Shown piece by piece: positions 20,841-53,353 of a DNA stretch of 64,000 nucleotides (its first letter is position 1; the number at the start of each line of letters is the position of its first letter). The DNA comes from Phaeacidiphilus oryzae TH49. GTDB lineage: Bacteria; Actinomycetota; Actinomycetes; Streptomycetales; Streptomycetaceae. The notes under the pieces are model-generated. The model had not been told where the DNA came from. It was given only the letters and a program-made list of their open reading frames with translations, and did not search any database. The DNA is taken from positions 2,674,055-2,738,054 of the forward strand of contig NZ_JQMQ01000005.1 of NCBI RefSeq assembly GCF_000744815.1. The letters run 5' to 3'. Made by a program: the position numbers and the translations under genes.

Positions 20841-21785
20841 ATGCGTGCACTCCTGGTCGTCAACCCGAAGGCGACCACCACGAGCGGGCGGACCAGGGAC
20901 GTACTCGCGCATGCCCTCGCGAGCGACCTGAAGCTGGAGGTGGCGACCACCGCCTATCGCGGCCACGCCCGCGACCTGGCGCGGGACGCCGTCGCGGACC
21001 GGGTCGACCTGGTGGTCTCGCTCGGCGGCGACGGCACCGTCAACGAGGTGGTCAACGGACTGCTCGCGGACGGTCCGCGCCCGAACCTGCCGCGGCTGGC
21101 CGTCGTCCCCGGCGGCTCGACCAATGTCTTCGCCCGCGCGCTGGGCCTGCCCAACGACCCGGTGGAGTCGACCGGCATCCTGCTGGACGCCCTCAACTCC
21201 GGCCGGGAGCGCGCGATCGGGCTCGGCCTGGCCTCCTCCGAGGGGCTGCCGGACCGCTGGTTCACCTTCACCGCCGGCTTCGGCTTCGACGCCGCCGTGG
21301 TCGGCCGGGTCGAGCAGCACCGCAAGAACGGCCGCCGCTCCACCCACGGCCTCTACGTCGACCAGGCGGTGCGGCACTTCTTCGGCGAGGGGCGGCGCCG
21401 CAAGGAAGGGCCGATCACCCTGGAGTTCCCGGGCGAGGACCCGGTCCCGGGCCTCTCCCTGGCCATAGTGAGCAACACCTCGCCCTGGACCTTCCTCGGC
21501 AACCGCCCGGTCTACGCCTCGCCGGAGGCCTCCTTCGAGACCGACCTGGACGTCTTCGGGTTGACCCGGCTGTCAGTGCTGCGCACGCTCCGTACTCTCC
21601 CCCAACTGCTCGACGGCGAGGCGCCCGGACCGCGCGGTAAGTACGTGGTGGCCTACCACGATCTGCCGTCCTTCACCTTGCAATCGCAGGAATCCACACC
21701 GTTCCAGGTGGACGGCGACCACCTTGGAGAGCGGAAGAAGGTCAGTTTCACAGGCGTGCGACAGGCACTGCGTGTGATTGTGTGA
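20841..21785 (+). CDS. Diacylglycerol/lipid kinase family protein
   Basis: 314-residue DAGK-catalytic-domain protein. ALLVVNPKATTTSGRT begins the nucleotide-binding fold. VSLGGDGTVNEVVNGLL is the GGDGT motif, and VVPGGSTNVFARALGLP is the second conserved block. FTFTAGFGFDAAVVGRVE and IVSNTSPWTFLGNRP follow, as in YegS-like lipid kinases. It probably phosphorylates a lipid at the membrane. ATG 20841 follows GAAGGG. Confidence 0.9.
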   Translation: MRALLVVNPKATTTSGRTRDVLAHALASDLKLEVATTAYRGHARDLARDAVADRVDLVVSLGGDGTVNEVVNGLLADGPRPNLPRLAVVPGGSTNVFARALGLPNDPVESTGILLDALNSGRERAIGLGLASSEGLPDRWFTFTAGFGFDAAVVGRVEQHRKNGRRSTHGLYVDQAVRHFFGEGRRRKEGPITLEFPGEDPVPGLSLAIVSNTSPWTFLGNRPVYASPEASFETDLDVFGLTRLSVLRTLRTLPQLLDGEAPGPRGKYVVAYHDLPSFTLQSQESTPFQVDGDHLGERKKVSFTGVRQALRVIV

Positions 21786-21788
21786 CCG

Positions 21789-21808
21789 CCAGGGCCTTTC
21801 GGCCTTGG
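21789..21808 (+). terminator. Hairpin terminator after the lipid kinase gene
   Basis: 8-bp stem CCAGGGCC (21789-21796) and GGCCTTGG (21801-21808) with one G-T pair and loop TTTC, directly after the stop codon. Confidence 0.5.
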
Positions 21809-22143
21809 ACTCGAACGTCCAACCGGGCATCACTCCATCGAAGTACAGGGTGTGACCTAAGCGACACCAAGGATTCAAAATTTCCTTCCTGTAGGGGGTT
21901 GTATCCGAGGCCGAGGTTTGCGAACCTCTACATGGCGATCGGGACGGCGACACGATCGATCACAGCGATCGATCGGCAGGCCACCCGAATCGTCCGAATC
22001 CACCGCATCGCAGCACGTGCCCAGCCCCCACCCGGGGCCATGGCCCGTCTCCGCGTCCGGATTCGTGAAAGCGTTCACATTCACAAGCCACCATTCAGAG
22101 TGTCGTGCGGGAGAGACCCGCCGGCAGGAGGAGTTGGACCACC
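21809..22143 (+). promoter_or_regulatory. Long wblE leader with several palindromes
   Basis: This 335-bp stretch has no gene I can support and is lower in GC than the flanks, as expected of a promoter region. It holds two GATCGATC palindromes (within 21953-21973) and the inverted repeat GTGAA-AGCG-TTCAC (22065-22078). I cannot assign a sigma factor or regulator to any of these. The ribosome-binding site GGAGGAG (22127-22133) closes it. Confidence 0.4.
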
Positions 22144-22395
22144 ATGGACTGGCGCCACCGCGCTGTCTGCCGCGAAGAAGACCCTGAGCTGTTCTTCCCG
22201 ATCGGCAACACTGGTCCCGCCCTGCTGCAGATCGAAGAAGCGAAGGCCGTGTGCCGTCGCTGCCCGGTCATGGAGCAGTGTCTGCAGTGGGCCCTGGAGA
22301 CCGGTCAGGACGCCGGTGTGTGGGGTGGCATGAGCGAGGACGAGCGTCGTGCGATGAAGCGCCGCGCTGCCCGCAACCGCGCCCGCACCGCCTGA
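22144..22395 (+). CDS. wblE: WhiB-like iron-sulfur transcription factor
   Basis: 83-residue Wbl protein. The four [4Fe-4S] ligands are Cys9, Cys37, Cys40 and Cys46 (C-x27-C-x2-C-x5-C). The GVWGG turn and the basic C-terminal AT-hook-like tail (RRAMKRRAARNRAR) are present. It begins MDWRHRAVCREEDPELFF, as in WblE/WhiB1, and acts with the housekeeping sigma factor. ATG 22144 has GGAGGAG upstream. It sits between the lipid kinase and the PAS kinase, the position of wblE in S. coelicolor (recalled). Confidence 0.92.
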   Translation: MDWRHRAVCREEDPELFFPIGNTGPALLQIEEAKAVCRRCPVMEQCLQWALETGQDAGVWGGMSEDERRAMKRRAARNRARTA

Positions 22396-22639
22396 CCCGA
22401 CTAGCCGAACACGCTGACGCGGCGTCAACTCGCCGCAGCAGCGGTCGGATTCGGATCCGGGTCAGATCGGATCCGGCGAACGACAGATCAACAGATCAAC
22501 AGATGATCGAGGCGAGGCCCGCTGTTCAGGCCCCGCCTTTCGAAGCCCGCCGGGCACCGCGCCGGATCCTGAATCCGGGGCGCGTCCCCGGAGGGGCGAC
22601 CCGCGCGGCCCCCTGGTGCCGATGGTTTGATACCGTCGG
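22396..22639. other. Noncoding gap after wblE
   Basis: No gene is supported here. The stretch holds a short tandem array of an 8-mer, ACAGATCA, three times with one change (22483-22506), and several GGATCCGG-like words. The approximate inverted repeat GGT-TTGAT-ACC at 22624-22634 lies just before the predicted small RNA. Confidence 0.4.
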
Positions 22640-22785
22640 GTACGTAGGGGCGCCCCACGGGGCACCAGCGGGACTGACCCGCACCGAGAGCCCCTGCTCC
22701 GGCCGACTCCCCCCGACGGCCGGAGCAGGTTTGAGAGGCCCTGCCGACCCTCCCCCCCGGTCGGCAGGGCCTCGCTTTCGTTCTC
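22640..22785 (+). ncRNA. Candidate small RNA with tandem terminal hairpins (scr5239-like)
   Basis: In the convergent gap between wblE and the PAS kinase, a highly structured stretch reads as four stem-loops. They are GGCGCCCC/GGGGCACC near 22649-22667, GCGGG/CCCGC near 22668-22682, a perfect 13-bp stem at 22693-22705/22717-22729, and a perfect 15-bp stem at 22735-22749/22759-22773. The last is followed by GCTTTCGTT on the plus strand, which sets orientation. S. coelicolor has a conserved 159-nt small RNA, scr5239, named after the kinase gene SCO5239, so a homologue here is plausible. The 5' end is a guess and the promoter is not clear. Confidence 0.55.
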
Positions 22786-22858
22786 CGGGCCCGCAGGCCG
22801 CGGGCCGCAGGCCGCGCCCACCAGCCCGCACCACGAGGGCTCGCGGGCACCGGCGCCC

Positions 22859-24316
22859 TCAGTCCAGCGGCACGTCCAGGACCACCTTGGTGCCGCCCCC
22901 GGGCGCCGGGGTCATGTCGAAGCGGCCGAGGAGCTCCCCGGTCACCAGCGTGCGGACGATCTGCAGCCCCAGGTTTCCGGTCCGCTGCGGGTCGAAGCCC
23001 TCGGGCAGACCGCGGCCGTCGTCCTGGATGGTGATCAGCAGCCGCTTGCCGCCGCGCTCGGCGGAGACCTCGACGGTGCCGGAGTCCTTGGTCCCGTAGC
23101 CGTGCTCCAGGGCGTTCTGCAGCAGCTCGGTGAGGATCATCGCCAGCGGGGTGGCGACCGCCGCCGAGAGGATGCCGAAGCTTCCGCTGCGGCGCGCCCG
23201 CACCCGGCCGTCCTGGGAGAGCTCCATCACCATGCCGAGCACCCGGTCGGCGATCTCGTCGAAGGCGACCCGCTCGTCCAGGTTCTGCGACAGCGTCTCG
23301 TGGACGATGGCGATCGAGCCGACCCGGCGGACGGCCTCGTCCAGCGCCGCCCGGGCCGGGTCCGACTCCAGCCGGCGGGACTGCAGCCGCAGCAGGGCGG
23401 CCACCGTCTGCAGATTGTTCTTCACCCGGTGGTGGATCTCCCGGATGGTGGCGTCCTTGGTCATCAACTCGCGCTCGCGGCGGCGCAGTTCGGTGACGTC
23501 CCGGAGCAGCACCAGGGAGCCGATATGGGTGCCCTTGGGCTTCAGCGGGATGGCCCGCAGCTGGACCACCCCGTCCTTGGTCTCCACCTCGGTCTGCCGC
23601 GGGGCCCAGCCGCTGGCCAGCTTCACCAGCGCCTCGTGGACGGGGCCGCGGGCGGGCGCCAGCTCGGAGGTGAGCTTGCCCAGGTGGTTGCCGACCAGGT
23701 CGGCGGAGAGGCCGATCCGGTGGTAGGCGGAGACCGCGTTGGGGCTGGCGTAGGTGACCACCCCGTCCGCGTCCATCCGGATCAGGCCGTCGCCGACCCG
23801 CGGCGAGACGTCCATGTCGGCCTGCTCCCCCGGGAACGGGAAGGAGCCGGCCGCGATCATCTGCGCCAGGTCGGAGGCGGACTGGAGGTAGGTCAGCTCC
23901 AGCCGCGAGGGGGTGCGGACGGAGAGGAGGTTGGTGTTGCGGGCGATCACGCCGAGCACCCGCTCCCGGAAGAGGATCGGGATGGACTCGATGCGGACCG
24001 GCACCTCCTCCCGCCACTCCGGGTCGCCCTCCCGGACGATCCGGGCCTCGTCCAGCGCGGTGTCCAGCATCGGCCGCCGGCCGCGCGGCACCAGGTGGCC
24101 GACCATGTCGTCCTGGTACGAGGTGGGGCCGGTGTTGGGGCGCATCTGCGCGACGGAGACGTAGTGGGCGCCGTCCCGGGTGGGGACCCACAGCACGAGG
24201 TCGGCGAAGGAGAGGTCGGCGAGCAGCTGCCACTCGGAGACCAGCATGTGCAGCCACTCGACCTCTTCGCCGGTCAGGTCGGTGTGGTGGCGTACGAGTT
24301 CGCTCAGGGACGGCAT
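22859..24316 (-). CDS. PAS-domain sensor histidine kinase (HisKA_2 type), SCO5239-like
   Basis: 485-residue soluble kinase. The N-terminal domain begins MPSLSELVRHHTDLT and covers about 1-160, GAF-like; a PAS domain follows (about 175-280) with GLIRMDADGVVTYASPNAV. The phosphoacceptor is in TIREIHHRVKNNLQT (about 294), and the ATPase domain has LTELLQNALEHGY and IQDDGRGLPEGF. No membrane segments; a cytoplasmic signal is likely. No response regulator gene is adjacent. A DasR-like operator lies about 93 bp upstream of the start. Confidence 0.88.
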   Translation of the reverse strand: MPSLSELVRHHTDLTGEEVEWLHMLVSEWQLLADLSFADLVLWVPTRDGAHYVSVAQMRPNTGPTSYQDDMVGHLVPRGRRPMLDTALDEARIVREGDPEWREEVPVRIESIPILFRERVLGVIARNTNLLSVRTPSRLELTYLQSASDLAQMIAAGSFPFPGEQADMDVSPRVGDGLIRMDADGVVTYASPNAVSAYHRIGLSADLVGNHLGKLTSELAPARGPVHEALVKLASGWAPRQTEVETKDGVVQLRAIPLKPKGTHIGSLVLLRDVTELRRRERELMTKDATIREIHHRVKNNLQTVAALLRLQSRRLESDPARAALDEAVRRVGSIAIVHETLSQNLDERVAFDEIADRVLGMVMELSQDGRVRARRSGSFGILSAAVATPLAMILTELLQNALEHGYGTKDSGTVEVSAERGGKRLLITIQDDGRGLPEGFDPQRTGNLGLQIVRTLVTGELLGRFDMTPAPGGGTKVVLDVPLD

Positions 24317-24408
24317 GGGGGGAGCGTAACCGGGCGGCGCGGGGGCTGCGCGCGGGGCGCGGTCGGGCGGGGCCCGGAGAAGACCGCGTCAAGGGCTGGA
24401 CAACGCCA

Positions 24409-24424
24409 ATTGGTCTAGTCCACA
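24409..24424. promoter_or_regulatory. DasR-type operator (dre) upstream of the PAS kinase gene
   Basis: ATTGGTCTAGTCCACA closely matches the DasR consensus A(C/T)TGGTCTAGACCA(C/G/A)T, with two departures. It lies upstream of the leftward kinase gene and 5 kb from dasR. It suggests N-acetylglucosamine-linked control of the kinase. No rightward gene begins nearby. Confidence 0.6.
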
Positions 24425-24660
24425 ATGAGCTCTGCACAACTCGAGCGGGTCGGCCGCGTATCTGCCCTGACCGCGACCGGACCGCTCGACACCGTCGGCG
24501 CGAAGCGCCGCCGCGCGCGATCAGGCGGGCCCGCACACCCGCCGCGCACGGCCGGCGCGACTGTGGGCGCCGACGAGACCGGGCTGCGGTGCCGCGGAGG
24601 GCTGAGGGTCCCTCCTTGGCGCTGCAGCCCGTTGTTTTTGCGGGCCCGTAGTTCCCGCTT
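24425..24660. other. Noncoding gap before repeat copy C
   Basis: I see no gene. A weak open frame from 24425 has no ribosome-binding site and runs into repeat DNA. The stretch is GC-rich with short runs such as GTTGTTTTTGCGGGCC near 24631. Confidence 0.4.
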
Positions 24661-24760
24661 CGCGCAGTTCCCCGCGCCCCTGCGTTCGGCGCCGAAGGCG
24701 CGAATACAGGGGCGCGGGGAACTGCGCGGCCGACCCGCTACGGCGCCGCAGACGCCATCG
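24661..24760. repeat. GC-rich palindromic repeat, copy C (22-bp perfect arms)
   Basis: The 22-bp arm starting CGCGCAGTTCCCCGCGCCCC (24661-24682) is exactly repeated in inverted form at 24707-24728. An inner palindrome TTCGGCGCCGAA lies in the loop and an ACGGCGCCGCA tail near 24740. It lies between the kinase promoter region and the end of the SIS gene. It is the most regular copy of the family. Confidence 0.8.
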
Positions 24761-51953: not shown

Positions 51954-52167
51954 GGCTCCATGGTCGCACCACCCGCAACCCGCGTACACCTGGTATACCG
52001 CAACTCCCGAGGTTGCTTCAGCGCTTTGTCGATTTCCCGACTCATCCACCGCACAAACCACTTGTCCGGGTGGGAATGTGACGGCGCATCAAAAGATGCT
52101 GCGCGCCCCTCGCGCGCACCGCACACCCCGCGCCCATGGTTTGCGCACAGTCGCCGACCACGCACGC

Positions 52168-52207
52168 AGGACGAGGGCCCGGTTCCGTAGAACCGGGCCC
52201 TCGTCCT
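52168..52207 (-). terminator. Terminator of the downstream initiator tRNA gene
   Basis: 18-bp perfect stem: AGGACGAGGGCCCGGTTC (52168-52185) and its complement (52190-52207), loop CGTA. It lies 7 bp past the 3' end of the tRNA. Confidence 0.85.
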
Positions 52208-52213
52208 GATGAG

Positions 52214-52287
52214 TAGCGGGGACAGGATTTGAACCTGCGACCTCTGGGTTATGAGCCCAGCGAGCTACCGAGCTGCTCCACCCCGCG
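52214..52287 (-). tRNA. Initiator tRNA-fMet (CAT), copy 1
   Basis: 74 nt without encoded CCA. Anticodon CAT in a loop closed by three G-C pairs (GGG/CCC) and an unpaired first position (C1 opposite U72) mark an initiator, not elongator, tRNA. T-loop GGTTCAAATCC. Identical to the copy at 53280-53353. Confidence 0.95.
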
Positions 52288-53279: not shown

Positions 53280-53353
53280 TAGCGGGGACAGGATTTGAAC
53301 CTGCGACCTCTGGGTTATGAGCCCAGCGAGCTACCGAGCTGCTCCACCCCGCG
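53280..53353 (-). tRNA. Initiator tRNA-fMet (CAT), copy 2
   Basis: 74 nt, base-for-base identical to 52214-52287, with its own terminator. Initiator features as in copy 1: CAT anticodon, three G-C pairs, mismatched first pair. Confidence 0.95.

Follow-up and report, generated by a model that had tools for sequence, protein, structure and literature searches.

Mai et al. reportedly found in 2019 that the 6C RNA of Mycobacterium tuberculosis binds several mRNAs via its C-rich loops without chaperones. For the M. abscessus RNA B11, the passages cited from PMC10470900 describe repression of a reporter whose 5' UTR contains a run of six G; one C-rich loop, whichever of the two, is enough for this repression, and mutation of both abolishes it. 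C-rich loops were also described in other Streptomyces small RNAs by Moody et al., with their function left open in the part of that paper cited here (PMC3765725). Another small RNA to be considered is scr5239, which is encoded upstream of SCO5239 (PMC4365011). It has 159 nt in five consecutive stem-loops, of which P4 contacts targets (PMC4365011, PMC7025569), and the dre core TGGTCTAGTCCA (the DasR site) stands 49 nt before its start (PMC4398421).

The window, meaning the whole 64-kb stretch of Phaeacidiphilus oryzae DNA analyzed here, contains a convergent gap between an ORF ending at 22395 on the plus strand and a kinase ORF running from 24316 to 22859 on the minus strand, as the earlier note had recognized. 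We take the first ORF to be wblE, as that note did; NCBIfam models gave no match to it. It was listed from 22105, and the ATG at 22144 was adopted as its start. The features on which the comparison rests are the following:

22144 to 22395, plus strand: wblE (WhiB-like protein), an ORF and the constant upstream neighbor of the element.
22511 to 22537, plus strand: terminator-like hairpin after wblE, recognized by eye, with arms GGCGAGGCC and GGCCCCGCC and one mismatch, followed by TTTC.
22626 to 22636, plus strand: promoter-like box TTTGATACCGT of the extended -10 type (TG-n-TACCGT), a conserved block with a putative promoter role.
22643 to 22782, plus strand: predicted small RNA of about 140 nt (fold z -7.8), its start placed from the box and its end from the U-rich tail.
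22649 to 22682, plus strand: two small 5' stem-loops, not conserved among the relatives looked at.
22693 to 22729, plus strand: hairpin 1, a 13-bp stem with loop ACUCCCCCCGA, the loop block being identical in 79 of 80 loci; covariation.
22735 to 22773, plus strand: hairpin 2, a 15-bp stem with loop CUCCCCCCC and a U-rich tail to about 22782; fold and covariation.
22859 to 24316, minus strand: PAS / histidine-kinase-type gene, homologue of SCO5239, the convergent neighbor of the element.

At 22643-22782 on the plus strand, four successive stem-loops are predicted, two small ones and then two long ones. The long ones are perfect stems of 13 bp (22693-22729, loop ACTCCCCCCGA) and 15 bp (22735-22773, loop CTCCCCCCC), so the architecture given in the earlier note is borne out by both the stem count and the fold. 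This stretch has a minimum free energy of -92.6 kcal/mol; 200 dinucleotide shuffles gave -62.6 +/- 3.8 (z = -7.8), and none of them was equally stable. The 64-kb window has four stems of 13 bp or longer that are perfectly Watson-Crick paired and close a loop of 3-12, two of them being the hairpins of the element, whereas dinucleotide shuffles of the window (n = 8) have none. The two small 5' stem-loops vary in sequence and shape among the three relatives folded, and the conserved part is restricted to the last two hairpins. On the plus strand, 3' of the last stem, there is a U-rich stretch (GCTTTCGTT in the window), with GTTT at this place in 16 of 20 aligned element sequences. Hairpin 2 is probably an intrinsic terminator, although a generic terminator scan gave no site at the stems of the element, which counts against it as a textbook terminator. 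The predicted RNA would end at this hairpin, near 22780, after about 140 nt. In another part of the window, two tRNA genes with equal scores lie about 1 kb apart on the minus strand (52214-52287 and 53280-53353), and a 19-bp perfect hairpin (52167-52208) adjoins the first of them.

The earlier note had read these stem-loops as scr5239, taking the gap for the place where Streptomyces encodes it. The element does resemble scr5239 in having several stem-loops and the same kinase gene nearby, but the Rfam model of scr5239 (RF02605), in the kind of covariance search that the note had proposed, has no match at the element at E <= 5, nor at E <= 1. The structure differs too, with four predicted stem-loops in about 140 nt, two of them conserved, against five in 159 nt. 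Position is equally discordant, since the element lies downstream of the kinase gene, unlike scr5239, which is upstream with the dre 49 nt before its start. In Streptomyces, the gap is not the scr5239 locus: RF02605 matches upstream of the kinase gene with 96-162 bits in all 7 Streptomyces loci tested. It also matches there in 6 of the 8 element-bearing loci tested, with 37-51 bits (cut-off 64), while in the other two (L002 and L003) the sequence does not reach the region upstream of the kinase gene. The dre core is found within 600 nt upstream of the kinase gene in 79 of the 80 kinase loci (L005-L084) collected by kinase protein search, 78 of these being exact and one having a mismatch, and loci with an element-free gap have the dre upstream of the kinase gene too, with one exception. 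The corresponding features of the window are:

24411 to 24422, plus strand: dre core TGGTCTAGTCCA (DasR site; motif as given in the part of PMC4398421 cited), preceding the real scr5239 homologue.
24460 to 24635, plus strand: predicted scr5239 homologue of the window genome, from a model match, with the start placed by the 49-nt dre spacing and the end by a stem and a T run.

The match comes from a covariance model made of 13 scr5239 relatives, the window being left out, and lies at 24531-24626 on the plus strand (34.8 bits, E 5.7e-6). It covers the 3' 88 of 148 model positions, and the next best match in the 64 kb has 10.6 bits. In the window's own region upstream of the kinase gene, RF02605 finds nothing at E <= 1; therefore, the homologue predicted there has diverged. 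It is upstream of the kinase gene, points away from it and is 1.7 kb from the element. From these sequence comparisons we conclude that the window genome has a diverged scr5239 at the published place, across the kinase gene from the element and with its dre, and that the element is something else; that the element could be scr5239 itself is extremely improbable. With this identity falls the link to agarase and methionine synthase that the note had derived from it for the hairpins, and the place of scr5239 in this lineage is corrected. What stands of the earlier interpretation is a small RNA on the plus strand, about 140 nt long and with its 3' end near 22780, which is still the best reading.

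Some other observations were made around the scr5239 homologue. Lineages differ in the orientation of the dre-scr5239 unit: the dre points away from the kinase gene in 50 loci and toward it in 29, every one of the latter named Streptomyces, and in 1 locus no dre was found. A long inverted repeat, gcgcagttccccgcgcccctg ... caggggcgcggggaactgcgc, is found at 24660-24729, directly downstream of the homologue, and gives chance microRNA matches. The sole sigma-70-like match in 21500-24500 is TGGACA-18-CACAAT at 24397-24426 on the plus strand, overlapping the dre of the homologue.

For the distribution of the element, a covariance model (R1) was built from 20 sequences, and 150 family genomes were searched with it. 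In 55 of them it matched strongly (96.6 bits or more), namely in the own genome of the window (g1), 14 genomes of g3, 3 of g11 and 37 of g18, and the next-best score was 35.2 bits. We take g3 to be Streptacidiphilus, g11 Peterkaempfera, g18 Kitasatospora and g9 Streptomyces. Within genera, besides the own genome, the element is present in all 14 g3 genomes, all 3 g11 genomes and 69 of 70 g18 genomes; the remaining g18 genome is an assembly in about 1260 contigs. The order-level search (293 genomes) gave four strong matches, confined to g1, g3 and g18, with g9 making up 24 of the 28 genomes among the matches listed, and the class-level search (296 genomes) gave a strong match in the own genome only. 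The R1 scores are bimodal, 96-125 bits against 36 or less for anything else among the matches listed; 26 candidates were scored per genome in the family search and 13 in the order and class searches, so weak relatives could be missed. One case is the Scr3202 locus of genome G008, which is absent from the matches of the genome search though it has 40 bits when scored directly. Among the 80 named kinase loci, 17 carry the element, under the names Kitasatospora, Peterkaempfera or Streptomyces, and 56 of the 73 named loci with wblE within reach are devoid of it. A strictly conserved, predicted small-RNA gene is in this way added to genera with little small-RNA coverage in the open-licence literature.

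The wblE side of the element is constant. A wblE homologue is found 180-380 nt upstream, on the same strand, in all 80 loci examined. These loci come from the 43 best-scoring of 69 g18 genomes, all 14 g3 genomes and all 3 g11 genomes, and also take in 17 named loci, the window and two repeats (L002, L003); the named ones may duplicate genomes counted without names. Aligning 64 distinct stretches of about 350 nt, we found two prominent blocks between wblE and the hairpins, TTGATACYGT and GATCAAC-N4-TGATCAAGG-like. The latter block (GATCAAC-N4-TGATCRAGG-like; 22494-22512 in the window) is common to element-bearing loci and stands directly before the terminator-like hairpin of wblE, a hairpin that was not flagged by the generic terminator scan (22511-22537). 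The other block, in the form TTGRTACYGT, is exact in 64 of the 80 loci and present as a looser pattern in 78, the window copy being TTGATACCGT at 22627-22636. We take this block to be an extended -10 box, which suggests a promoter with a transcription start near 22643. A generic sigma-70 scan found no promoter at the element. A pair like TTGATA-N17-TATTGT was seen by eye, in Kitasatospora-type loci only; a two-hexamer promoter was discarded, as the sigma-70 scan has no match at the element and the box common to all loci is of the extended -10 type. Upstream of wblE there is a palindrome, GTGAAAGCGTTCAC (22065-22078), that resembles a Rex operator. The passage cited from PMC6344877 says that wblE is repressed by Rex.

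The common strand and the constant neighborhood would also be expected if the element were cut from the wblE mRNA as a 3'-UTR-derived small RNA, or were the stable 3' end of this mRNA. Such 3'-UTR small RNAs are known in Streptomyces (PMC3919588, in the part cited), and RNAs such as scr5239 and those of the 6C type may be mistaken for UTRs (PMC8388888, for scr5239). However, a terminator-like hairpin separates wblE from the element, and the conserved promoter-like box is directly upstream of the latter, which makes an origin from the wblE transcript rather improbable.

The kinase gene is opposite the element in all 59 g18/Kitasatospora-type loci, in all 5 g11/Peterkaempfera loci and in the window, and a double or bidirectional terminator was considered that would serve both convergent genes and have no function as an RNA. 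The convergent gap and the strong GC hairpins with a U-rich tail would suit it; hairpin 2 resembles ordinary terminators, as do 4 of the 5 weak R1 matches inspected. On the other hand, wblE already has a terminator-like hairpin of its own, with the conserved promoter-like box in between, and the 15 g3 loci (14 genomes) keep the element with no kinase gene in the 1.5-kb flank. A terminator shared with the kinase gene is thus not the reason for the conservation.

The pattern of variation bears on the same alternative. The 80 loci reduce to 34 distinct hairpin sequences, in which 98.7% of the cells pair. Five of the 28 pairs have changed on both sides in these 34 sequences, a pair count reached by 4 of 500 shuffles, and the both-side changes total 44 cells, a cell count reached by none of the 500. 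When partners were slid by 1-3 columns, the controls showed 0 or 1 both-side-changed pair. The number of pair types is not above that of the shuffles (330/500), hairpin 1 has three pairs that fail to form in 5, 1 and 6 of the 34 sequences, and the stem variation is partly clade-inherited. In the loops, 79 of the 80 loci share one and the same loop-1 block, CCGACTCCCCCCGACG, and the exception has one C fewer; loop 2 consists of 6-9 C after CA, CT or CAT in the 80 loci. As a rough control, the 63 named loci without the element were each searched, on that side of the kinase gene, for their longest perfect hairpin of 8 bp or more. There were 40 different loops in the 47 loci having such a hairpin, the other 16 having none, and a few stretches end short of wblE. 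A loop that is invariant in 79 of 80 loci while the stems vary does not agree with termination as the sole role, and we consider this explanation unlikely. Conservation of the loops beyond the stems points to a function of the loops. The element is very likely a small plus-strand RNA gene, to judge by its sequence and predicted fold.

We suggest, with a probability of about 0.72, that the element is an independent gene for a 6C-like double C-loop small RNA, fixed downstream of wblE in part of the Streptomycetaceae, whose loops would pair with G-rich ribosome-binding sites. Transcription would begin at the box-proximal start near 22643 and end at hairpin 2. The C-rich loops (ACUCCCCCCGA; CUCCCCCCC) could then pair with G-rich stretches at the ribosome-binding sites of several mRNAs and, by analogy with what is reported for mycobacterial 6C/B11, this pairing may block translation. 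C-rich loops can pair widely in a G+C-rich genome, where matches between loop and ribosome site would be uninformative. As far as we searched, we found no description of this RNA in the open-licence literature, and it would be new at the wblE locus.

Some of the known C-loop RNAs give matches to the element. In a lax-filter Rfam scan of the window element, 6C (RF01066) reaches 47.4 bits with a cut-off of 47, while filtered scans do not report the element as 6C; the other lax-filter matches are C-rich-loop small RNAs and chance microRNA families. With 8 relatives of the element, the 6C model gives 41.7, 40.7, 40.6 and 40.0 bits in four, below the cut-off, and the other four are unlisted at E <= 0.1. 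As for other models, one of the eight has 42.4 bits with Scr3202 and one 31.5 with ar14, and L002 and L003 are unlisted for any of these C-loop models at E <= 0.1. The proteobacterial C-loop RNAs ar14 (30.8 bits, cut-off 58.8), sX13 (19.8, cut-off 50) and CcsR1 (19.4, cut-off 65.3) have sub-threshold matches in the window element that are driven by the C-rich loops.

The reverse comparison, with R1, gives 22.1 bits for the own genome's 6C, less than for some ordinary terminators (up to 33.6). We fetched 8 weak R1 matches from elsewhere in the family and, of the 5 inspected in sequence, 4 look like ordinary terminators. Therefore, a weak R1 score is not evidence of 6C kinship, and common descent with 6C is weakened. 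Further copies of the element were discarded as an explanation for these matches, and no ssd, HAD-hydrolase or wblE match was found in any of the 8 stretches. One of them, at 2050-2153 of L173 on the minus strand (genus g6), is a double hairpin with two C7 loops and 35.2 bits with R1, perhaps a further C-loop RNA.

Scr3202 (RF02833) is similar to the element in having two C-loop hairpins with a ACUCCCCCCGG-like loop 1, and each model finds the other RNA at a low score. The Scr3202 model, whose cut-off is 52, scores the element of the window at 40.7 bits and that of L010 at 42.4, both too low, and R1 gives 35.3-40.0 bits on the 4 of 12 Scr3202 loci tested, against 35.2 for the best other place (L173). 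A filtered search missed the window's own 40.7-bit match, and weak Scr3202 relatives may go unlisted likewise. Despite the mutual cross-scores, membership of the element in this family was rejected, as the scores are below the cut-off and the locus is another one: Scr3202 follows a sigma-factor ORF in the one locus read (L157), presumably an hrdD-like gene, whereas the element follows wblE. Scr3202 is above the cut-off in 17 of the 150 family genomes, all of g9, none of which has a strong element match, so the two distributions are complementary as far as sampled. It is conceivable, though doubtful, that the Streptomycetaceae carry a lineage-specific second double C-loop RNA besides 6C, namely Scr3202 in Streptomyces and the wblE-linked RNA in Kitasatospora, Streptacidiphilus, Peterkaempfera and the genus of the window. 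These would be mutual functional replacements and, together with 6C, broad blockers of translation start with overlapping targets.

Compared with the known systems, the element is closest in design to 6C (RF01066; scr3558 in S. coelicolor, B11 in mycobacteria) and shares with scr5239 (RF02605) little more than the nearby kinase gene, while differing from it in sequence, structure and position. As in 6C, there are two stem-loops about 5 nt apart, each with at least 6 C in the loop (ACUCCCCCCGA, CUCCCCCCC), and hairpin 2 is at the 3' end. Its 47.4 bits are within the 41-56 bits of the best 6C matches of 25 family genomes, of which the gene neighbors were checked in the own genome only. Since the 6C score leans on C runs, descent from 6C does not follow from it. 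The loci are different: 6C is between the HAD-IB hydrolase and ssd genes, as is the own genome's 6C (G000:C5:3813530-3813608, 51.1 bits), while the element is downstream of wblE. The occurrence differs as well, the element being found in four genera and 6C matches in 38 of 41 genomes. Of the genomes searched for 6C, the 6 that bear the element (G000, G002, G010, G021, G026 and G032) each have a 6C match elsewhere too. By its predicted structure, the element is a 6C-like double C-loop RNA and the second in its genome beside 6C. C-loop RNAs of the 6C design thus occur twice in one genome and, with a second one beside 6C (gene scr3558), their redundancy becomes testable.
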